Part shown: one piece after another, positions 1 to 59,231 of the stretch | Layout: each line of letters opens with the position of its first letter | Numbering within the stretch: position 1 is the first letter of the stretch | Origin: Corynebacterium glaucum | GTDB lineage: Bacteria; Actinomycetota; Actinomycetes; Mycobacteriales; Mycobacteriaceae | Length of the DNA stretch: 64,000 bases | Assembly (NCBI RefSeq): GCF_030408855.1 | Contig: NZ_CP047358.1 | Location: 434,001 to 498,000 of the forward strand | Direction of reading: 5' to 3' | The notes under the pieces: generated by a model | The model's database searches: none | Told to the model about the DNA's origin: nothing | The model's input: the letters and a program-made list of their open reading frames with translations, nothing else | Made by a program: the position numbers and the translations under genes

Positions 1-2277
1 GAGGCGCTGCCGCACACCTCAGCCGTGATCACCAACCTCGAAGACGAGGCTGTGCTGGTGGAGCGCATGTACGACGCGCTGTCCGGCGAAATGCACCGCC
101 GTCAGGAGCTGCTGCGCAAACGCGGCAACTTCGCCAACATCACCGACTACACCGCCGCGCGCATGGGCGGCGCCACCGATCCCGACGGTGCGCCCCTCGA
201 CCCGCTGCCGGCACTCATGGTCATTGTCGACGAATTCTCCGAACTGCTCTCCCAGCACCCGCACTTCGCCGATTTGTTCGTGGCTATCGGCCGACTCGGA
301 CGCTCGCTTGGAGTGCACTTACTGCTCGCCTCCCAGCGCCTCGAGGAAGGCAAACTGCGTGGGCTGGATTCGCACCTGTCCTACCGCATCGGTTTGAAAA
401 CCTTTTCCGCCGCCGAATCCCGCCAAGTGCTCGGCGTGCCCGATGCCTACGAGCTGCCCGGCGAGCCTGGATCCGGCTATCTCAAAGCGGCGTCGCCCGA
501 GCTGATCCGTTTCCGCGCGGCGTACGTCTCCGGGCCGCTCACCCGCAAGGTCACCGCGCAGCATGACGCGGTTCACCTTCCCGTGCGCGAGTTCGTGAGC
601 TGGGACGACGAGCACGCCTTACTCGCGGAACAGCTTGCCGCCGCCCCGGCAGAAACCATTCAGACGGACCCGTCGACAACTGTGCTCGATGCAGTCGTGG
701 CCCGGACGAAAGCGCTGGCGGCGCACGCAGGCATGCACGCGCACAAGGTCTGGCTCGAGCCGCTGCCGGACACGCTCGCGCTGCACGCGATCCGCCGCGG
801 TGAGCCCGACCTAGGTTTCTTGCACGTACCGGTTGGCCTCGTCGACGAGCCGTACTTGCAGCGCCAAGACACCCTCATCGTGGACCTCACGTCCGCCGGC
901 GGCCACCTCGCGATCGCTGGTGCACCGCAAACCGGCAAATCAGAAGCGCTGCGAACGCTCGTCGCATCGCTTGCCCTCACACACACCACCGACCAAATCG
1001 CGGTCTACGCCATCGACGCCGGGAGTGGCTCGCTTACCGAGCTCGAAGTTCTCCCGCACGTCGCAGGCGTGGCAACCCGCACCGACGAGGAGCGCGTCCG
1101 CCGCATCGTCGACGAGGTCCTCGGGGTCGTCGACGACGTCGCCGTCTCCCAGCACACCCCGCAGCGCCACACGCTTTTGCTTATCGACGGCTGGCACGCG
1201 CTGCTGGCCACCGACTCCAAGCTCGAGGACCTGCGCGATGCGTTGACCCGCATCGCCTCCGAAGGCCCTGCTGCGGGCGTGCATTTGGTGCTGACCACGC
1301 AGCGGTGGAGTGCGGTTCGCGTCGCGGTGCGTGACTTGATTGGCACCCGTATCGAGCTCGCGCTCACCGAGCCGATGGATTCACTCATCGACCGCAAAGC
1401 GCAGCTCGCCCTCCCACAGCGCCCCGGAATCGGCCTCACACCCGAGGCCAAAGTCATGCTGATCGCCCGCACCAGCCTCGAAGACCTCGCCCACATCGCG
1501 CGCGTCACCGCCGAACAACCCCGGGTCCCACAGCTCAAGGTGCTGCCTACCCATGTGCATGTGCGCACGCTTATCGACGGCTTCGCTACCGCCGCACCAA
1601 GCATCCCAATCGGCGTCGGCGGACCACGTCTTGAGCCGCTCTACTGCGTCTCTGGGCATGCCCTCGCTATTGGCTCAACAGGCGCGGGTAAGTCGACGTT
1701 CATTGCCAGTGCGATCACCGCAATCGCGGCGATGCCTCGAGAACACGCGCGCATGGTCATCCTCGACCCTCGGCGCGCCCATCTGGGGCGGGCGCCGGAA
1801 GACATGGTGGCGGCGTACGGGGCGTCGGCAAGCACGATCAGCGACGCGGTGCGTGCGCTGACTGTGACCCTGAACTCGAGGTTGCCTGACGCTGACGTTT
1901 CGCCGCAGCAGCTCGCGGACCGCTCCTGGTGGGAAGGCCCCGAGCTCTACCTGGTGATCGACGACCTGGACCTGGTCGGCGATGCGGTGCTGCGCGACGT
2001 GGTTGAACTGCTGCCGCACGCGCGCGACATCGGTCTTCATGTGGTCTGTGCCCGCAAGTTCGGCGGGGTTTCGCGCGCGTTGTTCGGTGGGTTCCTCGGT
2101 GGGCTCAAGGACCTGCACCCGGACGTGATGATCATGGACGGCAACCGCGACGAAGGCGCGCTCTTTGACGTGCGACCCGGCCCACTTGCGCCAGGGCGAG
2201 CAACGTTAGTACAGGGCGGCGGCGCAATCGGGACGGTGCAGCTCGTTGCGCCGTTTAGTGAGGGGGAGCAACTATGA
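1..2277 (+). CDS. eccC: Type VII secretion ATPase EccC, C-terminal part (5' end outside window)
   Basis: EccC is the FtsK/SpoIIIE-type motor ATPase of type VII (ESX) secretion that recognises WXG100 substrates at the membrane. The reading frame is open from base 1, before the first ATG at 25, so the gene is cut by the window edge. What remains is the end of ATPase domain 1 (Walker B-like MVIVDEFSELL), all of domain 2 (Walker A GAPQTGKSEAL near nt 918-950) and domain 3 (Walker A GSTGAGKST near nt 1672-1698, Walker B LYLVIDDLDL). The domain 2 Walker B segment reads LLLIDGW, without the usual acidic pair, as is common in the degenerate ATPase domains of EccC. It overlaps the next gene by 4 bp (ATGA), and WXG100 genes follow. 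Confidence 0.93.
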   Translation, partial: EALPHTSAVITNLEDEAVLVERMYDALSGEMHRRQELLRKRGNFANITDYTAARMGGATDPDGAPLDPLPALMVIVDEFSELLSQHPHFADLFVAIGRLGRSLGVHLLLASQRLEEGKLRGLDSHLSYRIGLKTFSAAESRQVLGVPDAYELPGEPGSGYLKAASPELIRFRAAYVSGPLTRKVTAQHDAVHLPVREFVSWDDEHALLAEQLAAAPAETIQTDPSTTVLDAVVARTKALAAHAGMHAHKVWLEPLPDTLALHAIRRGEPDLGFLHVPVGLVDEPYLQRQDTLIVDLTSAGGHLAIAGAPQTGKSEALRTLVASLALTHTTDQIAVYAIDAGSGSLTELEVLPHVAGVATRTDEERVRRIVDEVLGVVDDVAVSQHTPQRHTLLLIDGWHALLATDSKLEDLRDALTRIASEGPAAGVHLVLTTQRWSAVRVAVRDLIGTRIELALTEPMDSLIDRKAQLALPQRPGIGLTPEAKVMLIARTSLEDLAHIARVTAEQPRVPQLKVLPTHVHVRTLIDGFATAAPSIPIGVGGPRLEPLYCVSGHALAIGSTGAGKSTFIASAITAIAAMPREHARMVILDPRRAHLGRAPEDMVAAYGASASTISDAVRALTVTLNSRLPDADVSPQQLADRSWWEGPELYLVIDDLDLVGDAVLRDVVELLPHARDIGLHVVCARKFGGVSRALFGGFLGGLKDLHPDVMIMDGNRDEGALFDVRPGPLAPGRATLVQGGGAIGTVQLVAPFSEGEQL

Positions 2278-3290
2278 CGCAGACGCATGCGTATCCAGCG
2301 ACACAGGCGAGCGAGGCCGCGCTGCGCATCACTGTCACTGAGACTTCAACGGTGTTCACTGGGGTCGCGAACTTGCACCGGATGGATGCGCCTTCCGCGC
2401 GCGAGATCGCCAATTATGTGCGCAATGTCTTCGGCCCGGAACCTGCGGGCGCGCACGTGCACGTTGCCGCTTCTCCGGCTCGGCTAGCGGAGCTTGAGGC
2501 GGCGCTGGCGGGGTACGAGATCAGGTTGACTACGGAAGCGCTGCCCGACGACGCCGATACAAATGCCTTCGGCCTCTACGACTCCGGTGATCTTGATGTC
2601 CTCGTCCGCGGGGTAGATGCGGAGAGCGGTCGCCGACCGGAATGGGTGGTGCTCGCGGTGGCTGCCGCGGTGGCGGTCGTATGCGCGGTGGTGATTGGGA
2701 TGACCGCGGCAAACCTGGTCGGCCGCTCGGCGCCCGTTGGTGAACACAACGCTGCTGATCAGAACGACGCTGGCATGACTCCCACCGATAGCGAGGACGC
2801 GCCGGGGTCCGCTGCGGCGGTGACGGAGGCGTCGACAAGCGAACAAGCTGCGGACACTGTGGTGCTGGAGCGAGACGGGGTGCGGGTGGAACTGCCTGCG
2901 GGCTTCGAGCTGGAAGATGTCGACGGGATGTGGCGGGCAACCGGCCCCGACCCGGACTTCCGGCTGTTGATTAGTGTCGACGAGCTGTACAACCTGCCTG
3001 CCGAAACGATGGCGGAGCAGCTGCTTCGCGATGTGGAAGCCGACCCCGAGACCGAGCTTGTGGATACCGACGGGCACTCGCTGACGTACCGGGAGCTGCC
3101 CGCCGACGGATCTGAAGTGCTGTGGAAGACCTGGCCGCACGACAACTATCAGGTGTTCGTCGCGTGCCACACGCGCAGCGCACCGACGACAGTGCAGCAA
3201 GCCACTTGCCGGATGGCGTTTGAATCCGCTGTGTTCGAACCGTCCGATCCCTTCGAACCGGAGGAAGAGGTGGGCGCCATGAGCGGATGA
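2274..3290 (+). CDS. Type VII secretion-associated membrane protein (Rv3446c/TIGR03931-like)
   Basis: 338 aa. It has an N-terminal cytoplasmic domain (about residues 1-120), a single hydrophobic segment (about 124-149), a Thr/Ala/Asp-rich linker, and a C-terminal domain from about residue 198 that begins VVLERDGVRVELPAGF. This architecture matches the type VII secretion-associated family next to ESX loci in Mycobacteriales; the assignment rests on recognition of that layout and on context. The start overlaps the eccC stop (ATGA), so the two are probably translationally coupled. Its role in secretion is not known from sequence. Confidence 0.78.
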   Translation: MTQTHAYPATQASEAALRITVTETSTVFTGVANLHRMDAPSAREIANYVRNVFGPEPAGAHVHVAASPARLAELEAALAGYEIRLTTEALPDDADTNAFGLYDSGDLDVLVRGVDAESGRRPEWVVLAVAAAVAVVCAVVIGMTAANLVGRSAPVGEHNAADQNDAGMTPTDSEDAPGSAAAVTEASTSEQAADTVVLERDGVRVELPAGFELEDVDGMWRATGPDPDFRLLISVDELYNLPAETMAEQLLRDVEADPETELVDTDGHSLTYRELPADGSEVLWKTWPHDNYQVFVACHTRSAPTTVQQATCRMAFESAVFEPSDPFEPEEEVGAMSG

Positions 3291-5441: not shown

Positions 5442-5442
5442 C

Positions 5443-5463
5443 GTCGTTAAGCGAAAAGCTCTT
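5443..5463 (+). repeat. 21-bp element GTCG[A/T]TAAGCGAAAAGCTCTT, copy 1
   Basis: These 21 bases, directly after the rpsI terminator, match 18083-18103 after the groEL terminator with a single difference (T for A at position 5). They begin with a variant of the 10-mer found throughout the window. AAGAGCTTTTCGCTTA reads on the opposite strand. Confidence 0.7.
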
Positions 5464-6886: not shown

Positions 6887-6907
6887 GTTCTCCAGCGGGA
6901 GAAAACT

Positions 6908-6932
6908 CGCCCGTCGGGGGAACCGGCGGGCG
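6908..6932 (+). terminator. Possible weak terminator hairpin after glmM
   Basis: CGCCCGTCGG and CCGGCGGGCG form a 10-bp stem with one mismatch and a short purine loop. No T run follows, so termination here is uncertain. A second inverted repeat, GAGTCT/AGACTC, lies at about 6940-6962 ahead of the next gene. Confidence 0.4.
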
Positions 6933-7016
6933 TTGGGGGGAGTCTGAATAGGGGTAAGACTCATTCAGATTCGGGTCGCGCTAGCTGTGCGATCCGCACG
7001 TTCTTGGGGGTAGGAC

Positions 7017-7331
7017 ATGGATCCAATTGTTGGGCCCGACCTCGACATATCCGCGATGCGCGCGCACTTCACCGCCGCAATCTCGGCGCACGAGGAGGGC
7101 CGCAGCAACTTGCAGCGCAACCAGGTTCCGCTGAGCACCGCTGATTTCGGGGAAGGGTTTGCATCGCACGGCCGGGAGGTCATCGAGTCGCTCGAATCGT
7201 TGCGCCGCACCACACACCAATTCTTGCTCGCCAGGGAGCAAAGCTGGGGGAGCATTCTTTCGCTTATCGACGACATCGAGGAACGCGACACCACAGCTTC
7301 CGACGAACTTCGCGGGGTGACGGGGCGATGA
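7017..7331 (+). CDS. Small helical protein of unknown function, first gene of a three-gene unit
   Basis: 104 aa, no cysteine, no signal peptide. It is predicted mostly helical (residues 11-40 and 55-100 amphipathic) and, in size and shape, recalls EspC/WXG100-type secretion partners, but no WxG turn is visible, so this is only a suggestion. Its stop overlaps the start of the next gene (ATGA). It contains one copy of the repeated 10-mer at 7262-7271. Confidence 0.65.
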   Translation: MDPIVGPDLDISAMRAHFTAAISAHEEGRSNLQRNQVPLSTADFGEGFASHGREVIESLESLRRTTHQFLLAREQSWGSILSLIDDIEERDTTASDELRGVTGR

Positions 7332-9333: not shown

Positions 9334-9352
9334 AGCCCTGAGAGCGAACCGC

Positions 9353-10216: not shown

Positions 10217-10279
10217 TCTACTTGAATCTTTCTCCCAGGCTGGTGATGTGAAACGGTTTCGGCGAGGCCATGGTCTAGT

Positions 10280-10948: not shown

Positions 10949-10973
10949 CGCGCGCATGGCACACTTAACGCGT

Positions 10974-12071
10974 ATGAGCCCGCTCGTTGCACGCATCGAT
11001 CTCAGCGCCATCGCCCACAACACCGCCCTTCTGAAGAAGCAGGCCGGCGCGGCGCGGCTCGTTTGCGTGGTCAAAGCCGATGCATACAACCACGGCATCG
11101 GGCGGTGCGTGCCAGTCATGGAGGCTAACGGCGCCGATGCGTTCGGCGTCGCCACCCTCGCCGAGGCCCGCGCGGTCCAGGCACTCACCAGCAAACCGGT
11201 CATCGCATGGTTGTGGTCACCGCAGGAAGCAATCCCGGAGGGCATCGAGCTCGCCGTCGCCACAAAAGAGCACTTAGCTTCGCTTATCGACGCCCCGTTC
11301 AATGCCACGGCGTACCTCAAAGTGGACACTGGTATGCACCGCGCCGGATTCACCGAGTCAGAGTGGGATGACGTCTTCGCCCAAGCTGCCGCCGCGGAAC
11401 GCGATGGGCACGTGCGTGTCGCTGGCCTGATGAGCCACCTTGCGGACGCCGACAACCTGGACGGCGACTACACCTCTTTACAGGCAGCGCGCTTCCGCGA
11501 CGCCATCGCGCGCGCCCGCGCCGCCGGGTTAAACCCTGTGTGCAACCACCTTGCGAATTCCCCGGCGACGTGGACTCGGCCCGACCTCGTGTTCGAGCAG
11601 GTCCGCCCCGGTGTGAGTCTGTACGGCATGGAACCGATCCCGGGGGAGGACCGCGGGTTGCGCCCGGCGATGACGTGGGCAGCGACCATCCTCGCGGTGA
11701 AACCGCTCGCCGCGGGAGAACCGGTAAGTTACGGACTCACCTGGCGCGCGCCGAGCGATGGATACACGGCCCTGGTACCCGCCGGTTACGCCGACGGCAT
11801 CGCCCGCTCGTGGCAAGGCGCGATGCAGGTGACCATCGGCGGGCACCGCTACCCAGTGGTGGGGCGGGTGTGCATGGATCAAATTATCGTGTGGTTGGGC
11901 GAGAACGAGCACAGCGTGCGCGCCGGCTACGAGGCTGTCCTCTTCGGTGAAGGGGGAATGTCCGCCGCCGAGTTCGCCGATGCCGTCGGCACCATCAACT
12001 ACGAAATCATCTGCGCGCCGAAGGGCCGCACCCGCCGCGAGTACCTCGAACCCGAACAGGAGCGACCGTGA
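10974..12071 (+). CDS. alr: Alanine racemase
   Basis: 365 aa PLP enzyme making D-alanine for peptidoglycan. The PLP lysine motif is VVKADAYNHG near residue 36, and the C-terminal catalytic Tyr region is LTWRAPSDGYTALVPAGYADG. The ATG at 10974 gives the expected N-terminus (MSPLVARIDLSAI); longer in-frame starts run into the upstream membrane protein gene. It overlaps tsaE by 4 bp. Contains the repeated 10-mer at 11282-11291 (codons for LID). Confidence 0.95.
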   Translation: MSPLVARIDLSAIAHNTALLKKQAGAARLVCVVKADAYNHGIGRCVPVMEANGADAFGVATLAEARAVQALTSKPVIAWLWSPQEAIPEGIELAVATKEHLASLIDAPFNATAYLKVDTGMHRAGFTESEWDDVFAQAAAAERDGHVRVAGLMSHLADADNLDGDYTSLQAARFRDAIARARAAGLNPVCNHLANSPATWTRPDLVFEQVRPGVSLYGMEPIPGEDRGLRPAMTWAATILAVKPLAAGEPVSYGLTWRAPSDGYTALVPAGYADGIARSWQGAMQVTIGGHRYPVVGRVCMDQIIVWLGENEHSVRAGYEAVLFGEGGMSAAEFADAVGTINYEIICAPKGRTRREYLEPEQERP

Positions 12072-12613: not shown

Positions 12614-12620
12614 GGCACCC

Positions 12621-13124: not shown

Positions 13125-13811
13125 ATGCTCGTCCTCGCGATTGACACGGCCACCGCGCAGCTTGTCGTCGGTCTCGTCGAGACTGGTACCGGCACCGACA
13201 CCGACACCGACACCGGCACCGCTACCGTCCTCGCCGAGTCCGTAGAGACCACGCGCGCGCACAACGAACGTCTCGTGCCCACCGTCGACGCGGTCCTCGC
13301 TGAGGCTGGCAGGACCCACGGCGACCTCGACGCTATCGTCGTCGGGTGCGGCCCCGGCCCGTTCACGGGGTTGCGCGTGGGCATGGCCTCAGCCTCGGCG
13401 TTCGGTCAGGCGCTTGGCATCCCGGTCCACGGGGTGGTCACCCACGATGCGAGCAGCACGCTTATCGACGCCCCCTCCACGCTCATCGCCACCGACGCTC
13501 GCCGCCGGGAGGTGTACTGGGCCCATTACGTCAACGGCGAGCGCGTCGCGGGTCCCGAGGTCTGCGCCCCGAGCGCGATTCCGGTCGACGAAGTCGACGT
13601 GCTCAGCGTGCCCGAACACCTCGCGGACCAGCTCACCGTGTGCGCGCGCGAAGTCACCTACGTCGCCCCGCGCCCGGAGGGGTTGGTTCGCGCTGCCGAC
13701 CTCAACTCGGCGTCCGCGCCGCTGGTGCCGCACTACCTGCGCCGCCCTGACGCTGTGGAGCCAGCGCCGAAACCGAAGTCCCCGGCCCTTCCGGACGTCC
13801 ATGAAATTTAG
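13125..13811 (+). CDS. tsaB: tRNA t6A biosynthesis scaffold TsaB
   Basis: 228 aa, ASKHA fold. It begins MLVLAIDTATAQLVVGLVE and has the family signature GCGPGPFTGLRVGM near residues 73-86. TsaB dimerises with TsaD. A (Thr-Gly/Thr-Asp)n insertion near residues 20-35 comes from a 6-bp repeat (13182-13227) in what is normally a short loop between the first strands. It overlaps rimI by 11 bp. Confidence 0.94.
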   Translation: MLVLAIDTATAQLVVGLVETGTGTDTDTDTGTATVLAESVETTRAHNERLVPTVDAVLAEAGRTHGDLDAIVVGCGPGPFTGLRVGMASASAFGQALGIPVHGVVTHDASSTLIDAPSTLIATDARRREVYWAHYVNGERVAGPEVCAPSAIPVDEVDVLSVPEHLADQLTVCAREVTYVAPRPEGLVRAADLNSASAPLVPHYLRRPDAVEPAPKPKSPALPDVHEI

Positions 13812-14328
13812 GGAGCTTTCGCTTCACGACGCCACGCGCGCCGCAGAAATCGAAGCGGAATTGTTCGCGGGAGACCACCCTTGGTCGCGCGACGTCTACC
13901 TCGCGGAGATCGCCCAGCCGTACACTTTCTACGTCGGCGCCTTCAACGACGGCGGCAACGGTAACGGCAACGGCGACGGCGACAGCGACGGCGGGGAGCT
14001 GCTGATCGGCTTCGCCGGGCTCGCCATGCTCGGCCCGCGCGATGATCCGGAGTTCGAGGTGCACACGATAGGTGTCGACCGCGCCTACCAGGGCCGCGGC
14101 ATCGGCCGTGCACTCATGGACCAGCTTGTCCACACCGCCGACCTACTCGACGGGCCGATGTTTCTCGAAGTGCGCACAGACAACGCACCTGCAATCGCGC
14201 TGTACAAAAGCTACGGTTTTTACGTGCTGGCCACGCGAAAGCAGTACTATCAGCCCTCCGGTGCGGACGCCTACTCCATGATGCGGCCCCGCAAATCGGA
14301 GCAGGGCGTGGAAAGGAGCAACACATGA
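13801..14328 (+). CDS. rimI: Ribosomal protein-alanine N-acetyltransferase (GNAT)
   Basis: 175 aa. Acetyl-CoA loop [10 protein letters not shown] near residues 98-107 and the downstream ALYKSYGF motif mark a RimI-type GNAT. The ATG at 13801 lies inside the end of tsaB and starts [11 protein letters not shown]. Residues about 50-65 are a Gly/Asn/Asp repeat from 13948-13995, an insertion in a loop of the fold. Its stop overlaps the tsaD ATG (ATGA). The tsaB-rimI-tsaD order is typical of actinobacteria. Confidence 0.92.
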
Positions 14329-15368
14329 TTGTGCTCGGCATTGAATCCTCGTGCGACGAGACCGGGGTCGGCATCGTGCAACTGCACGATGACGGGCAGA
14401 TGGAGATTCTCGCCGACGTGGTCGCCTCCTCCATGGAGCAGCACGCGCGCTTCGGCGGCGTGGTTCCGGAGATCGCGTCGCGTGCACACCTTGAGGCGAT
14501 GCCGCAGGTCATGGAGGCTGCGCTCAAGGACGCCGGAATTGAAAAACCGGATGCTGTTGCCGCGACGGTGGGGCCGGGTCTTGCCGGCGCGCTGCTTGTC
14601 GGTGCCTCGGCGGCGAAGGCGTACGCGGCCGCGTGGGGTGTGCCGTTTTACGGCGTGAACCACCTTGGCGGCCACGTTGCGGTGGCCAACCTCGACGGGG
14701 AGGCGGAACTCCCGCACTCCATCGCTCTCTTGGTCTCCGGCGGGCACACGCAGCTGTTGGAGGTTGACGCGGTGGGTAAACCCATGCGCGAGTTGGGGTC
14801 CACGCTCGACGATGCCGCCGGTGAAGCCTACGACAAAGTGTCGCGGCTATTAGGCCTGGGATATCCGGGCGGCCCGATCGTCGATAAGCTTGCTGCTTCT
14901 GGTGAGGCTTCGATTGCTTTTCCGCGAGCCCTGACCCGGGCCGAAGACCTGCGCGGCGAGCACCGCTACGATTTTTCTTTCTCTGGGTTGAAGACAGCGG
15001 TGGCGCGCCACGTTGAGGCCGCTGAGCGCGAGGGGCGGGTGATCTCGATTGAGGACACGTGCGCGTCGTTCCAAGAAGCGGTGTGCGATGTGCTCACGAT
15101 GAAAGCCGTGATGGCCTGCGAAGACACGGGCGCGCGCACCTTGTTGCTCGGCGGTGGTGTGGCGGCGAATGCACGGCTCCGGGAGCTGGCGGGCGAGCGG
15201 TGCGCGGCGAAGGGGATCGAGCTGCGAGTGCCGCGGTTCGGTCTGTGCACGGATAACGGGGTGATGGTCGCGGCGCTGGGCGCCCAGCTGATTCACGAGG
15301 GGGCGCAGCCGTCTGGACTCGGAGTGGGGACCGACACTTCGCTCGAGATCGAAGTGCCGTTGGTGTAG
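14325..15368 (+). CDS. tsaD: tRNA N6-adenosine threonylcarbamoyltransferase TsaD
   Basis: 347 aa, full length. It transfers threonylcarbamoyl to A37 of ANN-decoding tRNAs. Signatures include [13 protein letters not shown] at the N-terminus, the metal-binding [16 protein letters not shown] and [11 protein letters not shown]. Last gene of the tsaE-tsaB-rimI-tsaD group. It carries the repeated 10-mer at 14880-14889. Confidence 0.97.
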
Positions 15369-16393: not shown

Positions 16394-18025
<1,632 letters not shown>

Positions 18026-18081: not shown

Positions 18082-18082
18082 C

Positions 18083-18103
18083 GTCGATAAGCGAAAAGCT
18101 CTT
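18083..18103 (+). repeat. 21-bp element GTCG[A/T]TAAGCGAAAAGCTCTT, copy 2
   Basis: One mismatch to the copy at 5443-5463, and likewise directly after a terminator. The first ten bases are an exact copy of the window-wide 10-mer. Its last bases reach the whcB stop codon. Confidence 0.7.
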
Positions 18104-20380: not shown

Positions 20381-22393
<2,013 letters not shown>

Positions 22394-24953: not shown

Positions 24954-24994
24954 CGCGCTGGCCCCGACGCGGGAGGCGTCGATAAGCTATCGGC

Positions 24995-43848: not shown

Positions 43849-44361
43849 ATGCTTATCGACGGCCCTTTGTCAGCGCACGTCCCGGAGCCGCTGCCGACAT
43901 CGGTGGAGTCGATGCACCGGGTCTCGCCGAAGCTGATGGTGCCGCGGCTGGTGGGCAACGTGATCTGGGCTGCGATCCTGCTTGGCGCGCTGTGGTGGGC
44001 GTACCTGCGGTGGGGTCGGTGGCTGCTGATCCCGTTTGTGATCTTGGCCGTCGTGTTTGCATGGAACATGGTGCTTGTCCCGCTGCGCGTGCGAAACCTG
44101 GGTTATCTGGAGACGGAGAACGAGTTGGTTTTGAGCGAAGGCAAGATGTGGCACACCATGACCGTGATTCCGTATGGGCGCATCCAGTTCGTGGACGTGG
44201 AGTCTGGGCCGATCGCGCGTGCACTGGGGTTGAAGCAGCTGGAGGTGCACACCGCATCGACGACGTCGAACTCCACGCTGCCGGGGCTGCCCGCCGCTGA
44301 GGCCGACGCGCTGCGTGATCGCCTGGCCGCGAAGGCGCGGGAGAGGATGAGCGGTCTGTGA
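43849..44361 (+). CDS. PH-domain membrane protein (YdbS-like)
   Basis: 170 aa. Two membrane helices (about 35-75) followed by a bacterial PH domain (NELVLSEGKMWHTMTVIPYGRIQFVDVESGPIARALGL). Pairs with the larger PH protein downstream (overlap of 4 bp). The start codon's G is the first base of a copy of the repeated 10-mer. Confidence 0.85.
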   Translation: MLIDGPLSAHVPEPLPTSVESMHRVSPKLMVPRLVGNVIWAAILLGALWWAYLRWGRWLLIPFVILAVVFAWNMVLVPLRVRNLGYLETENELVLSEGKMWHTMTVIPYGRIQFVDVESGPIARALGLKQLEVHTASTTSNSTLPGLPAAEADALRDRLAAKARERMSGL

Positions 44362-45803
44362 CCCCACCTGCCGAGCCTGCGCAACCTGACCAGCCTGCGC
44401 AAACTGCTCAGTACCGCCGCGTCCACCGGCTCAGCCCCGTGTTGCAGGTGTGGACTACGTTGCTGGCGCTGTTGGCGATTCTGGTCTTCAACTTCGCTGC
44501 GCCCCTGTGGAGGTGGCTGGGTGATGAGAACTACAGCGCCCGTCAGCTGCTGTGGCCGATCGCCGCGGTCGTTGTAGCGCTCGTAGTCGTCGTAGGGGTG
44601 TCGCAGCTGTGGTGGTCGAAGACCGGGTTTCGCGTCGGTGCAGAAGAGATCGAGCATAAACGCGGCGTGCTTCACAACCAGGTCCGAACCGCGCGCTACG
44701 ACCGGATCCAGGCCGTCGACATCGTGGAGCCGCTCGCGCCTCGTCTGTTCGGTCTTGCGGCTGTGCGCATCGAGGTCGCCGGCGGGGTGAACGCGGCGGT
44801 TAATATCGCCTACCTCCCGCGTGAAGAAGCGGAGGAGTTGCGCGGTGAGATCCTCGCGCGCATTGCGACGAAAGGCCCGAACGCGCCGATGGCCGAAGAG
44901 GCGGCCGAGGAGCTCGCGTTGGACGGGCTGGCGTCAGAAGGGTCGGAAGCGCGTGTGTCAGCCTCCGCAGGTGCACCGCGCAAGAACTACCTCGTCCCGC
45001 CGATCCCGATCGGGCGCTCGATGGTTGCGACGGTGTTTCAGTTCTCCACGATTGCCACCGTGGCGGCGTCGTTGGTGCCGCTGCTCACCGACTTGACCCT
45101 CGCGGCCATCGTGCCGATCCTCGTCGGTTTCGTGCCGCTCATCTGGCGCACCATCGATCAATCGTGGCGCTTCAATGCGTCCTTCGACGGGGAGGTGTTC
45201 AAGTTGAGGTATGGGTTGGCCAATAGGCGTCGACAAGCGGTGCCCCATGAACGAATCCATGCGGTACAACTCAAGCAACCGCTGTTGTGGCGACCTTTCG
45301 GGTGGTGGACGGTGTCGATCACCTCGGCCGGCTTCGGCGCGGAGGCGAGCGCGGCGACCGGGACCGCGAAGCTCCTGCCGGTGGGTACCTACGAGGAAGC
45401 CGTCGCCGTCGTGGGGGCCGTCGGGCCGTTGAGCGCTGACGCGTTGACCGACCTGAGCCGCGCCGACTACGCCTCACCGCGGCGCGCGCGCTGGGTCTCG
45501 CCGCTGGACTGGAAGAGCCAAACCGCGACCGTGCGCGACGGAGTCGCCCTGACCTCATTCGGGAGGCTCACCCGCCGCTACCAAATGGTGAAAGCGCCGC
45601 ACATCCAGGAGCTTTCGTACGAACAGGGCCCGCTCGAGCGCAGACTCGGCCTTGCGAGCGTGCGCTTCGACCTCGTGCCCGGGCTGGTGAAAATGACCGC
45701 CCGCGACCTCGACGACGCTGACGCGCGTGCGCTGCTTGAAGCGCTGCGCGCCCGCCGCTTGCCGCCGATGCACCCCTCGGAATCGCCTCATCTACGAGGG
45801 TAG
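44358..45803 (+). CDS. PH-domain membrane protein (YdbT-like)
   Basis: 481 aa with two or more bacterial PH domains (about 85-165, 275-345 and 380-470) between membrane helices at about 30-80 and 205-250. GTG start overlapping the upstream gene (GTGA). YdbS/YdbT pairs are widespread in Gram-positive bacteria; a role in membrane or envelope homeostasis is plausible but unproven here. Confidence 0.85.
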   Translation: MTPPAEPAQPDQPAQTAQYRRVHRLSPVLQVWTTLLALLAILVFNFAAPLWRWLGDENYSARQLLWPIAAVVVALVVVVGVSQLWWSKTGFRVGAEEIEHKRGVLHNQVRTARYDRIQAVDIVEPLAPRLFGLAAVRIEVAGGVNAAVNIAYLPREEAEELRGEILARIATKGPNAPMAEEAAEELALDGLASEGSEARVSASAGAPRKNYLVPPIPIGRSMVATVFQFSTIATVAASLVPLLTDLTLAAIVPILVGFVPLIWRTIDQSWRFNASFDGEVFKLRYGLANRRRQAVPHERIHAVQLKQPLLWRPFGWWTVSITSAGFGAEASAATGTAKLLPVGTYEEAVAVVGAVGPLSADALTDLSRADYASPRRARWVSPLDWKSQTATVRDGVALTSFGRLTRRYQMVKAPHIQELSYEQGPLERRLGLASVRFDLVPGLVKMTARDLDDADARALLEALRARRLPPMHPSESPHLRG

Positions 45804-47401: not shown

Positions 47402-47866
47402 CTACACCCCGCCTATGAAACCGAGCTGGCGCCACGCCTCAAACACCGCCACCGACGCGGAGTTCGTCAAGTTCATCGAGCGCCGCCCGGGCACCATCGG
47501 GATGCGCAGCCGGTCGGTCACGCGCGGGTGGTGCGCATGCTCGTGCGGAAGGCCGGTCGGCTCGGTGCCGAAGAGCAACGCGTCGCCGTCTTGGTACGCC
47601 ACCTCGTGGTAGTAGCGCGTGGCTTGCGTGGTGAAGGCGAAAACGCGGCTGGTACGAAGCGTCGATAAGCAACTGCTCAAATCCGGGTGAATGGTGACTT
47701 CCGCGAGGTCGTGGTAGTCCAGCCCCGCACGGCGCAGGTGTTTGTCGTCGAAGTTGAAGCCGAGGGGCTCGACGAGGTGCAGCCGCGCGCCCGTGTTCGC
47801 GGCGAGCCGGATCGCGTTGCCGGTGTTGCCGGGAATGACGGGGTTGTCGAAGATTATGTGCAGCAT
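47402..47866 (-). CDS. trmL: tRNA (cytidine(34)-2'-O)-methyltransferase TrmL
   Basis: 154 aa SPOUT methyltransferase from ATG 47866 (MLHIIFDNPVIPGNTGNAIR). Signatures: NTGNAIRLAANTGARLHLVEPLGF at the start, LLFGTEPTGLP in the middle, and IPMVPGRRSMNLTNSASVAVFEAWRQL forming the knot. Methylates position 34 of tRNA-Leu. TAAACT lies 7 nt upstream, favouring this start. Confidence 0.9.
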   Translation of the reverse strand: MLHIIFDNPVIPGNTGNAIRLAANTGARLHLVEPLGFNFDDKHLRRAGLDYHDLAEVTIHPDLSSCLSTLRTSRVFAFTTQATRYYHEVAYQDGDALLFGTEPTGLPHEHAHHPRVTDRLRIPMVPGRRSMNLTNSASVAVFEAWRQLGFIGGV

Positions 47867-47909: not shown

Positions 47910-48788
47910 GTGACTGCGATCAAACTGGACGGAAAGCTCTACCGCGAGGAGATTTTCGCGGACCTGAAATCGCGCGTGGCGGCGCTCAAGGAGCAGGGGA
48001 TCACTCCAGGCCTGGCCACGGTGCTGGTCGGCGAGGATCCCGCGAGCCAGAACTACGTACGCATGAAGCACAAGGATTGCGAAGAGCTCGGCATCGCTTC
48101 AATTCAGAAGGAGTTGCCGGCTGACACCACTCAGGAAGAGCTTGAATCGCTTATCGACGAGCTGAATCGGGACGAAAGCGTGACCGGCTACATCGTGCAG
48201 CTGCCGTTGCCGAAGCACCTCAACGAGAACCGCATTCTGGAGCTGATCGACCCGGCGAAGGACGCTGACGGGCTGCACCCGGTCAACCTGGGCAAGCTGG
48301 TGCTGAACGAGCCGGCGCCGCTGCCGTGCACGCCGAATGGCACGATTAAGCTGCTGGAGCGCTTCGGGGTGGATTTGAACGGCGCGATCGTGTGTGTGGT
48401 GGGCCGCGGCGTGACGGTGGGTCGGCCGATCTCGCTGATGCTGACTACGCGGGATGTGAACGCGACCACTGTGCTGTGCCACACCGGCACCAAGGATCTT
48501 GCGGCTGAGACGCGTCGCGCCGATGCCGTGATTGCGGCGGCCGGCAAGCCGCACATGATTACGGCGGACATGATCAAAGAGGGGGCAGCGCTTGTCGACG
48601 TCGGCGTGTCCCGCGTTGACGGCAAAACCGTCGGCGACCTGCACCCCGATGTTTGGGAGAAGGCTGGCTGGGTGTCCCCGAACCCGGGCGGTGTCGGCCC
48701 GATGACGCGCACGTTCTTGGTGCGCAACATTGTGGAAAGTGCTGAGCGCCAGGCGGCGCAGGCGGCGCAGGCCGCGCAGGCGAAGTAG
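47910..48788 (+). CDS. folD: Methylenetetrahydrofolate dehydrogenase/cyclohydrolase
   Basis: 292 aa, GTG start. Motifs [15 protein letters not shown] with the catalytic Lys, [14 protein letters not shown], and the NADP fold [16 protein letters not shown]. Supplies one-carbon units. The C-terminus has a tandem Gln-Ala-Ala repeat (48751-48782). It carries both an exact (48149) and a near (48590) copy of the repeated 10-mer. Confidence 0.96.
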
Positions 48789-52304: not shown

Positions 52305-53954
52305 ATGAGGACGAAACGGGGAGTCAACGCGGGCATTTACCCGGTGCTGCTGATCCTGCTTATCCTGGTCGCCGCGCCGCTAGCGTCAGTGCTGGTGACC
52401 GCGGTGACGGGATACCGGGGTGATGATCCTGCCCTGGATACGCTGTGGCAGCCGCAGATGGTGCGAGTCATTCTCAACACCGTCTGGCTCTCCGTCCTCG
52501 TCGTATTCTTCTCCACGTTGTTTGCCGCTCCACTCGTGTTCTTCCGCGCGTGGACGCCGATGCGTCGCGCCGGCTGGGTCGAGATCGTGATCATGATCCC
52601 GTTCATGACACCGCCGTTCGCTGCCGCCATGGCTTGGATGGACTTCACGCGAGTGCGCGGCGTTGCGGACATGCTTCTCGGGCCAATGCTTGGCGACACC
52701 GTGCGCTCTGCCATCAACTCCGTCTGGGGCATGGGATTTGTGATGGCCGCCGAGCTGTTTCCATTCCTGTACCTGATCCTGCGGAACAGTCTGGCCTCCA
52801 TCCCAGCGTCGCAGCTTGAAATGGCCCAGGTCGCCGGCGCGAGCCGCTGGCAGCAGTTTTCCCGCGTTATCTTGCCGATGGTGCTCGGGCCTTTCTCGCT
52901 GGGTGCACTGATTGTGTTCATCAAGGCAGCCGGCGAGTTCGGTACACCGGTGACGCTGGGCAACGCGATCGGTTACCCGGTCCTGGTTTCGTCCATCTAC
53001 CAGGATGTGACCATCGACCCGCTGAACTTCAGTAAAGCGGCGGCGTCGTCAAGCGTGCTCTTTTTCTTGGGCGTGATGGCGTGGGCGATGCAGCAGTGGG
53101 CAGGCCGTGGTGGCTTAGCGAGTGGTGGGCGTGTCTCGCGCCCGGTCTCGCTGAACATCTCACAGGGAGGCATGGCACTTGCCTGGCTCTACACGGCCAT
53201 CGTGTTCGTGCTGACGGTGCTGATCCCGTACATCTCCATCATCTTGGCATCGATGACGATCCTGCGCTCCAAGCCGCCGACTCTGAACAACCTCACTTTC
53301 GATTACTTCGGCATCGTCCTATCGATGCCATCGGGGCAGGAAGCGCTCACGCGTTCCATCGCCCTTGGCGCAATTGGCGCCACCACATCGGTGGTGTTGG
53401 CTTTGGCGGTGACGCTGCTGACGATGCGTCGACAAGCATTCTCTGCCCGAATTTCCGACTTCCTTGCTGTGGCTCCCGACACTGTGCCCGGCATCGTGCT
53501 TGCGATCGGCTTTATCCTGCTGTGGAACTCCCCGAGCCTGCCGTGGACCCCGTACGGTAGCCAGCTCATCCTTGTGATGGCGTTCACCGTGCTGTTCATG
53601 CCGATGGCGGTGCAAAACATCAAGACCTCCGCCGCGTCCATGTCGCCAACCTTGCACGAGGCGGCGGCGATTTCTGGCGCGACCAGGGGACAGGCGTTTT
53701 GGCGGGTGACGCTGCCGATGCTCGCGCCGGGCATTTTTGCTGGCTGGCTGCTCGCGTTCTTCGTGGGCATCCGCGAGCTGGTGATGTCCTCGCTGATCCG
53801 CCCGACCAGCATTAATCTGCTTGCGCCGTGGATCATGAACCAATTTGATCAGGGGCACCGCGCTGAGGCGATGGCGATGACCCTGATTGGCGTGGGCACT
53901 TCCACGGCGGTGCTGGTGCTGATCCGTTGGTGGCAGGGGCGTGCGCGGCGCTAG
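52305..53954 (+). CDS. Iron-type ABC importer, fused permease (FbpB/FutB-like)
   Basis: 549 aa with about 12 membrane helices in two permease halves, each with an EAA-type loop (EMAQVAGASRWQQFSRVILPMVLG and EAAAISGATRGQAFWRVTLPMLAPG). Such a fusion is the usual FbpB form. The final TAG shares CTAG with the stop of the convergent metX gene. Confidence 0.86.
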   Translation: MRTKRGVNAGIYPVLLILLILVAAPLASVLVTAVTGYRGDDPALDTLWQPQMVRVILNTVWLSVLVVFFSTLFAAPLVFFRAWTPMRRAGWVEIVIMIPFMTPPFAAAMAWMDFTRVRGVADMLLGPMLGDTVRSAINSVWGMGFVMAAELFPFLYLILRNSLASIPASQLEMAQVAGASRWQQFSRVILPMVLGPFSLGALIVFIKAAGEFGTPVTLGNAIGYPVLVSSIYQDVTIDPLNFSKAAASSSVLFFLGVMAWAMQQWAGRGGLASGGRVSRPVSLNISQGGMALAWLYTAIVFVLTVLIPYISIILASMTILRSKPPTLNNLTFDYFGIVLSMPSGQEALTRSIALGAIGATTSVVLALAVTLLTMRRQAFSARISDFLAVAPDTVPGIVLAIGFILLWNSPSLPWTPYGSQLILVMAFTVLFMPMAVQNIKTSAASMSPTLHEAAAISGATRGQAFWRVTLPMLAPGIFAGWLLAFFVGIRELVMSSLIRPTSINLLAPWIMNQFDQGHRAEAMAMTLIGVGTSTAVLVLIRWWQGRARR

Positions 53955-55160: not shown

Positions 55161-56081
55161 TCAGCTTCTAGCTAGGCTCGCGAGACCGTCGCGATAAGGG
55201 GTCGGTGCCCAATCGAGGTCGGATTCGAGCGCCCGCGGGCTGTCCCACAGCCACGTCATTTCGCGCAGCCCGCCAACATTCTCGTCGGCGATGCCGGCTA
55301 CGCGCAGCATCCACGGTCGCAGCGTCAGTGGGCGGTGATGTTCGGCGTTGAACGCCTCCGCCGCGAGCGTTGCAAAGTCGCGCTGCGTAATCGGTTCGGC
55401 GGTGGGGGTGAGGACGATCCCGGTTGCGCGCCCCGCGGAAGCGTCCACCAGCGCGCGGGCGTAGTCGTCGATATAAGTGAAAGCGTGCGGCACATCGGCG
55501 TCGATCAGCGCGAGGGGTCGCTTTCCGGCACGCACCCGGTCAATGATCAGCGCGTGGGCCACCATCGATTCGCCGCATCCCGGCCCGTACAGGTCGGAAG
55601 CGACTACCGAAGCGGTAGGCGCGGCAGCAGCGTCTCGTGCGGCAAGCAGTTCAGCACGCACGCCAGGCTTGCCGACGGTCGCGCCCACCCGGCTCTCCGC
55701 CGTCACCGTGTGCACGCCTGGGCCGAAAGCGTAGACAGACTCGGGAAAGGTGACGTGCGCGCCCACTTCCGCGCTCACTTCTGCTGCTGCGTTGAGTACC
55801 GCCCGTTCCAGCGGGATGAGCTGGGAACGCCAGGCGGCTTCCGTGTACGCGGCGTGGGTACAGCAGATGATGCGGTCTGCGCCGCTGGCATCGAGGGCCC
55901 GGTGTAGGTCGGTCGAGGACGAGGCGTCGCCGATGAAGAGGTCCGCTCCTGCGGGTACCTGACGGTCCGATCGGGCCATCACGGTGACGCCTGCTTTCTG
56001 CGCACTCGATGTTTGCGCAATGAGACGTTTCGTGACCGCTCGCCCAACCGCTCCAAAACCGATAACCAATGTTGAACTCAT
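55161..56081 (-). CDS. NAD(P)-binding epimerase/dehydratase-like protein
   Basis: 306 aa from ATG 56081. Rossmann motif VIGFGAVGRAVTKRL at the N-terminus (GxGxxG type), DLYGPGC and a Tyr in HAFTYIDDYARALVDA. Atypical short-chain/extended family; substrate unknown. Divergent from a TetR regulator, which probably controls it. Confidence 0.8.
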   Translation of the reverse strand: MSSTLVIGFGAVGRAVTKRLIAQTSSAQKAGVTVMARSDRQVPAGADLFIGDASSSTDLHRALDASGADRIICCTHAAYTEAAWRSQLIPLERAVLNAAAEVSAEVGAHVTFPESVYAFGPGVHTVTAESRVGATVGKPGVRAELLAARDAAAAPTASVVASDLYGPGCGESMVAHALIIDRVRAGKRPLALIDADVPHAFTYIDDYARALVDASAGRATGIVLTPTAEPITQRDFATLAAEAFNAEHHRPLTLRPWMLRVAGIADENVGGLREMTWLWDSPRALESDLDWAPTPYRDGLASLARS

Positions 56082-56185: not shown

Positions 56186-56878
56186 ATGACCGTCGATAAG
56201 CTGGGCCCGCGAGCCCTGGCGCGGCTGCGAACCGAGGAGCGGATCGAGCAACTTGCCTTTGCCCACCTTGACGAGGGGGGAGTGGAGGCTGTGAACCTGC
56301 GAGCAGTTGCGCGCGACCTTGGGATTAGCCCGTCGGCTTTGTATCGCTACATTCCAGACCGGGAAGGGCTGCTGACCACGCTCATTGCCGCGTCGTACAC
56401 GCAGCTAGCGGAGGCGGTGGAGTCGGAACTGGGCGCGCAAGCGGCGGATACGGCGGCGGCTGATTGTTGCCGGGTTTTGGCGGCGGCGATGCGACGGTGG
56501 GCGCTGGCGTACCCGCAGAGGTGGGCCCTAATCTACGGCAGCCCTGTAGCCAATTTTCATGCACCGGCGGAAGCGACTGGTGCGGCCGGCACTCGAGTGA
56601 TCGCGCTCCTCGGTGAGCTCCTTCAGGATGCGCGGCCGAGCTCGGTGGCGGGGGCGCGCAGCGAAGTGTTTATGGAGGACCTCTACGCGATCGGACAGGA
56701 TGAGACTCCAGGGTTGGAGCTGGATGTGGTGGAGTTGGGCCTTGAGCTGTGGGCGAAACTCATCGGCTTGATTTCTGCCGAGGTGTTTGGGCACTTTGGC
56801 GAGGCCACGCTGCGCGACCCGGAGGAGTTCTTCCTGCGCTCAGTCGACCGTTCGATGCGCGCGCTGTTCGGCAAGTAA
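56186..56878 (+). CDS. TetR-family transcriptional regulator
   Basis: 230 aa. Helix-turn-helix AVNLRAVARDLGISPSALYRYIPDREGLLTTLI near residues 36-68, and a TetR_C-type C-terminal domain with WALIYGSPVANFHAP. Divergent from the dehydrogenase-like gene at 55161-56081. Codons 3-6 (VDKL) carry an exact copy of the repeated 10-mer (56192-56201). Confidence 0.88.
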   Translation: MTVDKLGPRALARLRTEERIEQLAFAHLDEGGVEAVNLRAVARDLGISPSALYRYIPDREGLLTTLIAASYTQLAEAVESELGAQAADTAAADCCRVLAAAMRRWALAYPQRWALIYGSPVANFHAPAEATGAAGTRVIALLGELLQDARPSSVAGARSEVFMEDLYAIGQDETPGLELDVVELGLELWAKLIGLISAEVFGHFGEATLRDPEEFFLRSVDRSMRALFGK

Positions 56879-57044: not shown

Positions 57045-59231
57045 TTACTTCAGGCCGTCGATAAGCTGGTTGAAGGTCGCGGACGGACGCATCACAGCGT
57101 TGGTCTTGTCCTCGTCCGGCCAGTAGTAGCCGCCGAGGTTAGCCGCGCCGCCCTGCGCGTCAATGAGCTCCTTGTCGATCTGCTCGGCGTTAGCGCGCAG
57201 TTGCTCTGCCACCGGCGCGAACTTCTCTGCCAGCTCGGCGTCCTCGGTCTGCTTCGCCAGCTCCTCAGCCCAGTAGAGGGAGAGCCAGAAGTGGGAGCCG
57301 CGGTCGTCGATCTCGCCGACCTTGCGCGACGGGGACTTGCCCTCGTTGAGCAGGGTCTCGGTCGCACGGTCCAGGGTGTCGCCCAGGACACCAGCGCGCT
57401 CGTTGCCGTTCGAGTTCTTCTCGTGGCGGAAGGACTCGGCCAGCGCAAGATACTCGCCGAGCGAGTCCCAGCGCAGGTGGTTTTCCTCCTGCACCTGCTG
57501 CACGTGCTTCGGTGCGGAACCGCCAGCGCCGGTCTCGAACAAGCCGCCGCCAGCCATCAGCGGGACCACGGAGAGCATCTTCGCGGAGGTACCCAGCTCG
57601 AGGATGGGGAAGAGGTCGGTGTTGTAGTCACGCAGCACGTTGCCGGTCACGGAGATGGTGTCCTCGCCGCGGCGGATGCGCTCGACGGATGCCTTGGTGG
57701 CCTCGACCGGGGACATGATCTCGATGTCTAAGCCCTCAGTGTCGTGGTCGCCCAGGTACTTCTCCACGAGCGTGATCATGTTGCGGTCGTGCGCGCGCTC
57801 CGGATCTAGCCAGAAGATCGCCTTCATGCCGGACAGGCGGGCGCGGTCCACGGCCAGCTTGACCCAGTCCTGGATCGGGGCGTCCTTGGTCTGGCACGCA
57901 CGCCAGATGTCGCCCTTCTCAACGTCGTGCTCGATCAGTACGTCGCCGGCGGAGTTCACGACCTGCACCTTGCCGTCGGCCGGAATCTTGAAGGTCTTGT
58001 CGTGGGAGCCGTACTCCTCGGCCTTCTTCGCCATTAGACCAACGTTCGGCACGGTGCCCATGGTGGTCGGGTCGTAGGCGCCGTTCGCGCGGCAGTCGTC
58101 GATCACTACCTGGTACACACCGGCGTAGGAGGAATCCGGGATGGTGGCCAGGGTGTCCTGCTCCTGGTCGTCCGCGTTCCACATGTGGCCGGAGGTGCGG
58201 ATCATTGCCGGCATCGACGCGTCAATGATCACGTCGGACGGCACGTGCAGGTTCGTGATGCCCTTGTGCGAATTCACCATCGCCAGCGCCGGGCCGTCGT
58301 GAAGCTGCTGCTCGAATGCAGCCTTGATCTCCTCGCCGTTGTCCAGCGAACCAAGGCCGTCCAAGATTGCGCCGAGGCCGTTCTCGCCGTCGAGGCCTGC
58401 CGCCAGCAGCTCCTCGCCGTACTTGTCAAAGACTGGCTTGAAGTACGCGCGCACGACGTGGCCGAAGATGATCGGGTCGGAGACCTTCATCATGGTGGCC
58501 TTCAGGTGGGCGGAGAAGAGCACGCCCTCGTCCTTCGCGCGCTGCACGGCGTCGAGCAGGAACGCATCCAGCGCCTTGGCGGACATGTAGGTGCCGTCGA
58601 CAACCTCGCCCTCGATGACCTGCAGGCCGTCCTTGAGCACTTCCTCGGAACCGTCGGCCTTGACCAGCTTGATCTGCAGCGTGTCGTCGGACGGCATGAT
58701 CACGGACTTCTCGTTGTGGCGGAAGTCGCCTGCGTCCATGGTGGCCACGTTGGTCTTCGAGTCAGACGACCACTCGCCCATGGAGTGCGGGTGCTTCTTG
58801 GTGAAGTTCTTCACGGCCTCCGGCGCGCGGCGGTCCGAGTTGCCTTCGCGCAGCACCGGGTTCACGGCGGAGCCCTTCACCGCGTCGTATTTCTCCTGCG
58901 CATCCTCGTACTCCGGGATGTCGAAGCCGGCGGCCTGCAGCTCCTTAATCGCGTTCTTCAGCTGGACCAGGGACGCGGAGATGTTCGGCAGCTTGATAAT
59001 GTTCGCCTCCGGCGTCTTCGCCAGCTCACCGAGCTGCGCGAGCGCATCGTCCATCCGCTGTTCATCGGTCAGGCGATCCGGGAACTGCGCCAGGATGCGG
59101 CCGGCCAGTGAGATGTCAGCGGTTTCCACGTCGATGCCAGCCTGGGATGCGAATGCCTCCACGATCGGCTTGAGCGAGTAGGTCGCGAGCAGCGGCGCTT
59201 CGTCGGTGCGGGTCCAGATGATCTTAGACAT
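57045..59231 (-). CDS. icd: Monomeric NADP-dependent isocitrate dehydrogenase
   Basis: 728 aa, the length of the monomeric IDH family used by Corynebacterium (dimeric enzymes are ~420 aa). It starts [28 protein letters not shown]. Converts isocitrate to 2-oxoglutarate with NADPH formation. GAGGAGCAC precedes the ATG. The last codons include an exact copy of the repeated 10-mer (57057-57066). Confidence 0.97.

Follow-up and report, generated by a model that had tools for sequence, protein, structure and literature searches.

A bipartite, dialect-forming word repeated across Corynebacterium chromosomes: a candidate DNA uptake signal

The window analysed here is a stretch of 64,000 nucleotides (nt) of the Corynebacterium glaucum chromosome (positions 434001-498000 of a genome of 2,529,320 bases in one contig), in which a short word recurs many times on both strands. 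A sequence-only reading of this DNA had drawn attention to a 10-mer, GTCGATAAGC, said to be present in 18 copies, and to a second 10-mer with nine. Both counts, and the positions of the 18 copies, were confirmed: GTCGATAAGC occurs nine times on each strand, where dinucleotide shuffles lead one to expect 0.04 copies and an order-3 Markov model 0.13, and GTCGACAAGC occurs nine times against 0.22 expected. Over the whole genome GTCGATAAGC is found 264 times on the forward and 245 times on the reverse strand, i.e. 509 times, versus 3 for the same pattern reversed, which makes the observation larger than first claimed.

The repeat is thus real, but the 10-mer is merely one form (509 of 1,554) of a longer site. 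In a 464-kb sample, C stood directly before all 103 copies of the 10-mer, and substitutions within it were tolerated almost exclusively at the two central bases. The true unit is therefore CGTCG-NN-AAGC, a bipartite word of nine fixed bases with a free centre of 2 nt, of which GTCGATAAGC is the commonest form. This word (CGTCGNNAAGC) is present in 784 forward and 770 reverse copies, 1,554 in total, whereas its reversed control gives 57 and 46 (103). The density in C. glaucum is about one per 1.6 kb, and 45 copies lie within the window (Table 1). It differs from its own reverse complement, and its flanks are asymmetric and oriented.

Perfect copies dominate. A 504-kb sample, made of the window and 22 further stretches out of 2,529 kb, contained 327 of them against 13.7 expected, while all 27 one-base variants jointly numbered 383 against 294; the excess over expectation amounts to 313 for perfect copies and 89 for the one-off variants. 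Summed over the centre, CGTCGNNAAGC reached 306 copies against 12.7 expected in a C. glaucum sample in which the variants of the second base stayed near expectation (CATCG 14 vs 8.7, CTTCG 10 vs 7.6, CCTCG 9 vs 9.2). The sequence-only reading knew of no described counterpart in Corynebacterium, and no prior description was found among the literature matches listed, which mostly do not cover subscription papers; those listed for the literal sequence were, judged by title, on other subjects.

A second C. glaucum strain (G178), aligned over 279 kb and 97.75% identical outside the words, was used to follow the substitution of single bases, with the expected number of single-nucleotide polymorphisms (SNPs) taken from the local rate at the matching codon phase. 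The nine fixed bases carried 8 SNPs where 42.8 were expected. The third codon positions inside the word held 3 SNPs in 582 against 31.0 expected, about 10-fold fewer than neighbouring third positions, while a single SNP fell on first positions (5.9 expected) and another on second positions (2.0 expected). The centre, with 7 SNPs where 5.9 were expected, evolves freely. Among 187 aligned sites 180 were kept, 7 were lost and 5 were gained, each through one or two substitutions.

By a simple gene model, the 327 sites of the 504-kb sample comprise 277 coding, 46 intergenic and 4 partial ones. The commonest reading frame encodes Leu-x-Asp on the other strand (175 of the 277 coding copies), and in the motif context CTT serves for Leu in 176 of 231 cases, compared with 1,314 of 12,698 elsewhere. 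This bias, together with the depletion of SNPs at third positions, bears out the earlier proposal that it is the nucleotide rather than the protein sequence that is selected. The accompanying description of CTT as a rare codon was right in substance, although CTT, which makes up 11% of Leu codons, is better called uncommon than very rare.

The word is blind to replication. With the replichore border placed near 1.1 Mb according to GC skew in the stretches sampled, 155 sites of the 504-kb sample are leading and 172 lagging, in agreement with the earlier statement that the word has no strand polarity and hence does not resemble the FtsK-orienting polar sequences (KOPS). With respect to transcription 193 sites are opposite and 86 in the same orientation, and consecutive sites are more often in opposite (177) than in the same orientation (127). 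Spacing is more even than chance, as 20 gaps are shorter than 200 bp against 39.9 in simulations (standard deviation 5.7), and none of 1,000 simulations gave a number as low. Two stretches of C. glaucum are poor in sites; as read from translations, the first contains WXG100-like genes and the second genes for ribosomal proteins and elongation factors. At 240001-260000 the WXG100-like genes and their large neighbours (type VII secretion-like by translation) hold very few words, and at 360001-380000 the genes read as rpsL, rpsG, fusA and tuf carry none; highly expressed genes may exclude the word.

The free centre has its own preferences in different genomes: AT in C. glaucum and G149 (G-numbers label genomes), TC/TA in G099, GC in G006 and AC in G111. 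After correction for codon phase, the flanks depart from expectation between -35, where the examined range begins, and +23, and are as expected from +24 to +45. On the 3' side of the core an A-rich step is followed by GC[TC]C, located at offset 15 or 16 in 95 of 321 copies (background about 4.2 per offset). A weaker second block of this kind had been noticed from the window, and it is real, since GC[TC]C lies near a fraction of 0.59 of 111 copies of the 10-mer versus 0.13 of 9,200 random places, with a peak 15-16 nt past the motif start. The block is present in C. glaucum and G149 and not clear in G099, G006 and G111; upstream G-rich words are enriched in all five genomes and in both of the dialects described below. 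Between the two strains of C. glaucum, 48 SNPs were observed at -30 to -11 against 86.1 expected (binned sums), 8 against 21.6 at +10 to +14 and 2 against 4.9 in the GC[TC]C block. The site seems to be built of an upstream G-rich segment, then a gap, then the core, and lastly a downstream block that is specific to the lineage. Also overrepresented in the window are GAGGGCATC/GATGCCCTC (9 copies, 0.75 expected) and AGGGCAT (19 copies, 3.96 expected), and some of these copies may belong to the flank on the downstream side of the word.

To place the word in the genus, 201 Corynebacterium genomes were surveyed, i.e. C. glaucum, one further strain of the species and 199 drawn evenly from a larger group. 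Two dialects were distinguished, the G dialect, CGTCG-NN-AAGC, and the A dialect, CATCG-NN-AAGC (CATCGNNAAGC). The former is present in at least 200 copies in 140 genomes, with a median of 16.7 times the reversed control and a lowest value of 3.7 times; the latter reaches at least 300 copies in 11, and G143 alone falls in both sets. The G form has 100-199 copies in 8 genomes, the A form is partial in 2, and 41 of the 201 have neither dialect. In the genomes with at least 200 copies forward and reverse numbers are balanced (largest |z| 2.16), a comparison of whole-genome strands, replichore polarity being taken from C. glaucum alone. The G form, the only dialect counted there, is not enriched to a comparable degree in 31 other actinobacterial genomes (Rhodococcus, Gordonia, Nocardia, Dietzia, Mycobacterium and others). 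The largest excess in this outgroup belongs to Rhodococcus sp. IEGM 1409, with 332 copies against 209 reversed; the lineage recorded for it is Cyanobacteriota, apparently owing to a clash of names. Among the named Corynebacterium records counted alongside, that of C. lubricantis DSM 45231 has 1,286 copies.

The helicase gene that adjoins the Tad locus was used for a tree of 50 rows, built by a quick method with supports from the Shimodaira-Hasegawa-like approximate likelihood ratio test. G066 and G073, from which no helicase was obtained, are not included; the intermediate G120 (101 copies) was scored as G, the partial G084 as A. Alignment A1 leaves out one sequence (L067), from the motif-free G015, since an in-frame stop interrupts the Tad-adjacent helicase gene of that genome. 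A motif-free clade of 12 rows with a support of 100 includes C. glyciniphilum and C. suicordis, and 11 of the 12 A-labelled rows fall in one clade of 15 rows (support 99), which also holds the G-form C. striatum and G011 as well as two motif-free species. On this tree the motif-free label changes 7 times and the A label 5 times, and well supported branches force at least 6 and at least 2 of these changes, respectively. Within the helicase gene itself, both dialects are represented at four columns of the alignment. All 28 sites in the 11 A genomes, several of which are near-identical, are of the A form, so that these counts are not independent; the G form occupies 21 of 23 sites in 14 G genomes, both exceptions being A forms in G011. 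The 20 motif-free rows have 2 sites between them. These A forms in a G species are probably relics. The C. glaucum helicase is 81% identical to its homologue in Corynebacterium sp. Marseille-P4321.

The word is scarce on the five plasmids that were compared. Plasmid pTP10 of C. striatum (50,000 of 51,409 bases read) carries 7 sites, all within 5777-13119. Two of these lie within tetA and tetB. The other five belong to an adjacent block, where mshC has three and hypothetical genes have two; the hypothetical genes adjoin those for dihydroorotate dehydrogenase, undecaprenyl-diphosphate phosphatase and phosphoribosyl-ATP diphosphatase. The remaining 41 kb have no site, where 16.6 would be expected at chromosomal density. 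A second C. striatum plasmid (50,000 of 55,973 bases read) has 2 sites, in aac(3)-XI and the adjoining histidine kinase gene (15376-15796 in L222), and a third has none in 25.5 kb. Thus, outside the one tetAB/chromosome-like stretch, C. striatum plasmid DNA contains 2 sites in 116 kb against 47.2 expected. No site was found on one plasmid of C. tuberculostearicum and one of C. aurimucosum, two species whose chromosomes were not checked by name for the word. These data suggest that the word-bearing pieces on the two resistance plasmids, tetAB with its block and aac(3)-XI with its neighbour, derive from Corynebacterium chromosomes. A phage collection searched with 25 kb of the window gave no match.

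C. glaucum encodes comEA and comEC, as well as one Tad locus with TadZ, TadA, TadB, TadC, a Flp-type pilin (DUF4244), small proteins resembling TadE and TadF, and the adjoining helicase. Family matches cover TadA, the DUF4244 pilin, ComEA and ComEC, and the remaining Tad names rest on position and resemblance.

Based on these observations and by analogy with known systems, we suggest that CGTCG-NN-AAGC is probably a DNA uptake signal, i.e. a self-recognition word for natural transformation, and we put the probability of this reading at roughly two in three. The reasons are that the word is kept base by base, is replication-blind and evenly spaced, shows its dialects at the same places, is absent by clade and is scarce on plasmids. 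We term the element uptake-signal-like and do not file it as a DNA uptake sequence (DUS), since what defines the latter is a function, namely preferred uptake or better transformation of word-bearing DNA and binding of the word by a receptor.

Corynebacteria are enclosed by an outer mycomembrane, and incoming DNA would therefore, as in Neisseria and Haemophilus, have to be drawn through an outer layer of the envelope. The word would be bound at its core, and perhaps also at the upstream G-rich tract, by a surface protein, for which a minor pilin of the Tad/Flp pilus or a partner of ComEA is the most plausible candidate; word-bearing fragments would be preferred, handed to ComEA/ComEC and recombined. 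The word would then multiply and persist by drive, because word-bearing alleles would be taken up more often. A shift in the specificity of the reader could convert sites singly (the second base from G to A or back) and so give rise to dialects and relics, and after loss of the reader the words would decay.

Other short chromosome-wide words are well known. KOPS and Chi are read by proteins and oriented with replication, the highly iterated palindrome HIP1 is an octamer that is very abundant in cyanobacterial coding DNA, and the uptake signal sequence (USS) of the Pasteurellaceae has a flank that is AT-rich and downstream. The Corynebacterium word is, like KOPS and Chi, short and distributed over the chromosome, but it is not replication-polar. 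With HIP1 it shares its abundance in coding DNA, whereas it is asymmetric and has oriented flanks and dialects; of the two analogies offered by the sequence-only reading, the one with HIP1 is therefore weaker, and uptake sequences fit best. That perfect copies are in excess over those with one mismatch, as found here, is given as the mark that separates uptake sequences from the sites of regulators (PMC1626085). The 1,554 copies on two strands may be set beside the 1,471 USS cores described in the 1.8-Mb genome of H. influenzae (PMC1626085) and the average USS spacing of about 1,000 bp (PMC7811141). An orientation preference in reading frames, here 193 against 86, is also reported for known uptake sequences (PMC2346458), and to these common traits can be added dialects with a common core and, on the five plasmids, rarity in mobile DNA.

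Both known groups of uptake sequences are similar to the Corynebacterium word in part. The DUS of the Neisseriaceae, which is read by the minor pilin ComP (PMC12061091), is likewise an abundant, sharp word with clade dialects around a common core, and five of the examined Neisseriaceae genomes are described as without an obvious DUS (PMC3630211). Inverted pairs of DUS are reported to be frequent and associated with terminators (PMC3630211); the Corynebacterium word, in contrast, has few inverted pairs, is bipartite with a free centre of 2 nt, has a G-rich upstream tract and belongs to a genus with pilus genes of the Tad type. The USS shares with it the high density, the relatively even spacing, a core with flanks and the division into two clade subtypes (PMC1626085, PMC7811141; for the subtypes also PMC3630211). 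Its sequence is unrelated, however, the flank common to five Corynebacterium genomes is G-rich and upstream, and the bias to gene ends described for uptake sequences of the Pasteurellaceae (PMC2346458) is not seen. The uptake of self-DNA tagged by sequence has been described in these two Gram-negative families (PMC3630211). It appears somewhat less assured than the uptake reading itself, though still probable, that the word represents the first such system outside them, with Tad-pilus transformation in a mycomembrane genus and a bipartite, dialect-forming self-word that delimits gene-exchange groups and marks the chromosome-derived stretches of plasmids.

Several observations weigh against an uptake signal, and they concern the site as well as the machinery. 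Two common traits of uptake sequences are lacking, namely terminator-type inverted pairs, which are common but not defining, and a bias to gene ends. Pairs of inverted sites are rarely close, 2 being nearer than 80 bp among 304 neighbouring gaps. No preference for gene ends was found in the 504-kb sample, where positions inside genes are roughly flat; copies that start near a gene end, as pointed out earlier, exist as single cases but do not reflect a general rule. Nor is the word enriched between genes (46 copies, 52 expected), and the intergenic word bases, with 3 SNPs in 232 against 4.0 expected, show no clear reduction. The depletion of SNPs in the upstream flank is discontinuous, with 48 observed against 39.7 expected at -10 to -1.

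As for the machinery, its presence does not predict the word. ComEC was detected in all 201 genomes, including the motif-free ones, and all 21 loci that were checked, 14 of them from motif-free genomes, could be recognised as Tad loci, with single small genes unmatched at some (TadE at two, TadB and the helicase at one each). The T2SSE family scored above its cut-off in 195 of the 201 genomes. Among the six below it, G021 revealed a Tad ATPase when searched with the C. glaucum protein, and five had no match: one motif-free genome and four motif-rich drafts, G075 (1,486 copies), G092 (285), G113 (1,752) and G119 (778). These drafts are fragmented and 53-95% complete, so that either assembly gaps or a real absence is possible, and they have lowered our confidence in the uptake reading. 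The T2SSE match is often weaker in motif-free genomes, with exceptions both ways, a trend that may reflect phylogeny. A column that separates the dialects was sought and not found in Flp, TadE and TadF; ComEA has two such columns, but the neighbouring control gene HolA has six. The presence of ComEC or of the Tad ATPase was thus rejected as the determinant of the word, as was a dialect-determining residue in the Tad or Com proteins, none being found beyond the level of the control gene. The com/tad machinery is permissive at best and not diagnostic, i.e. it fits the distribution of the word without explaining it. In G001, G112 and G114 two weaker ComEC matches were obtained each, though the word is plentiful there; comEC is possibly split in these genomes. 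Transformation of the actinobacterium Micrococcus luteus is reported to depend on its tad genes, and the authors of that work expect the same in other actinobacteria (PMC4322843). In Corynebacterium, natural competence is not reported among the literature matches listed, with subscription papers mostly uncovered.

The strongest competitor of the uptake reading, which we nevertheless regard as unlikely, is a chromosome-organising site, functionally similar to HIP1, where a nucleoid-associated protein, a condensin loader or an anchor would bind at even intervals and selection for this binding would maintain the word. It would suit the even spacing, the location on chromosomes rather than plasmids, the lack of polarity and the conserved segment at -30 to -11, and it would also account for the failure of the com and tad genes to predict the word. 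However, organising sites are normally graded in their consensus, while here perfect copies dominate, HIP1 is palindromic and this word is not, and both the joint change of dialect and the absence of the word from whole clades would be unusual for a basic function of the chromosome. A Chi-like signal for recombination or repair, read by a helicase-nuclease of the host, could explain the G-rich upstream tract and the genome-wide spread. It is distinctly improbable in view of the leading and lagging numbers and of the balanced strand counts given above, and a RecB model scored above its cut-off in none of 15 genomes, weaker relatives being found with the best in G149. For want of replication polarity KOPS and Chi proper were both rejected.

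Hardly any better are the prospects of a self-mark of a restriction-modification or other defence system, in which the word would be protected or methylated. Species dialects and the scarcity on the plasmids examined agree with such a mark, but restriction sites are normally avoided and not multiplied, a spacer of 2 nt is unlike those of type I systems, and conservation here extends to a segment 11-30 bp upstream. That the word is a functionless by-product of mutation or codon usage can be considered next to incredible: most coding copies do share one frame, that of Leu-x-Asp, yet neither the preference for CTT in this context nor the depletion of third-position SNPs would follow from it, and the density of intergenic copies is about that expected from uniform placement. 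The resemblance of TTATCGAC to the DnaA box TTATCCACA was set aside as well, since the copies are evenly spread and two of the box bases are free.

If the word is indeed an uptake signal, it would constitute a third independent origin of uptake tags, in the Actinomycetota, with an architecture and dialects of its own, and the trait would appear to evolve repeatedly, perhaps wherever DNA crosses an outer membrane layer. Many corynebacteria would then be naturally competent, and harmless species would become easier to use for genetics. The word would also offer a sequence clue as to whether a stretch of a plasmid stems from a Corynebacterium chromosome.

Table 1. Copies of CGTCG-NN-AAGC within the window, by window coordinates; gene context according to the simple gene model.
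Form	Position	Strand	Remark
CGTCGATAAGC	1179..1189	-	
CGTCGATAAGC	1569..1579	-	
CGTCGGCAAGC	1823..1833	+	
CGTCGACAAGC	2830..2840	+	
CGTCGTTAAGC	5442..5452	+	intergenic or partial
CGTCGATAAGC	7262..7272	-	
CGTCGATAAGC	11282..11292	-	
CGTCGATAAGC	13460..13470	-	
CGTCGTGAAGC	13821..13831	-	
CGTCGATAAGC	14879..14889	+	
CGTCGTCAAGC	17050..17060	-	
CGTCGATAAGC	18082..18092	+	intergenic or partial
CGTCGTCAAGC	20792..20802	+	intergenic or partial
CGTCGCCAAGC	22451..22461	-	
CGTCGACAAGC	24623..24633	-	
CGTCGATAAGC	24875..24885	+	
CGTCGATAAGC	24977..24987	+	intergenic or partial; changed in second strain G178
CGTCGACAAGC	25329..25339	-	
CGTCGGCAAGC	26334..26344	-	
CGTCGATAAGC	28478..28488	+	
CGTCGAAAAGC	28991..29001	-	
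CGTCGATAAGC	30245..30255	-	
CGTCGACAAGC	31683..31693	-	
CGTCGATAAGC	32727..32737	-	
CGTCGAAAAGC	34040..34050	-	
CGTCGGTAAGC	35302..35312	+	
CGTCGAGAAGC	35665..35675	+	
CGTCGATAAGC	38459..38469	+	
CGTCGTCAAGC	41027..41037	-	
CGTCGACAAGC	41697..41707	+	
CGTCGACAAGC	43323..43333	+	
CGTCGATAAGC	43851..43861	-	
CGTCGACAAGC	45228..45238	+	
CGTCGATAAGC	47660..47670	+	
CGTCGATAAGC	48149..48159	-	
CGTCGACAAGC	48590..48600	-	
CGTCGTCAAGC	53044..53054	+	
CGTCGACAAGC	53427..53437	+	
CGTCGGCAAGC	55667..55677	-	
CGTCGATAAGC	56191..56201	+	
CGTCGATAAGC	57056..57066	+	
CGTCGTGAAGC	58295..58305	+	
CGTCGTCAAGC	59636..59646	-	
CGTCGCCAAGC	62166..62176	-	
CGTCGTCAAGC	62681..62691	-	

An unsupervised scan for gapped words was applied to motif-free genomes; in its positive controls the known word ranked first, with 60 and 22 copies in 80 kb. 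Seven motif-free genomes, at 80 kb each, yielded no dispersed word with both that abundance and that excess, a result compatible with rarer or weaker words. One of them, in G014, is dispersed and rarer (9 copies, 0.5 expected) and has a similar score. In the GC-rich, motif-free G147 a dispersed 9-mer, GGACGCCGC, was found in 54 copies in 92 kb, where 12.2 are expected under an order-3 and 31.3 under an order-5 model, and GGACGCC with free bases is likewise overrepresented and dispersed; this excess is perhaps due to codon usage, or it represents another word. The top word of the motif-free G152 is a single local array, in which an inverted-repeat word, CCGCG..CGCGG, occurs 51 times at 1900001-1920000 with 50 gaps shorter than 150 bp, and which is probably an array of clustered regularly interspaced short palindromic repeats (CRISPR) or a tandem repeat.

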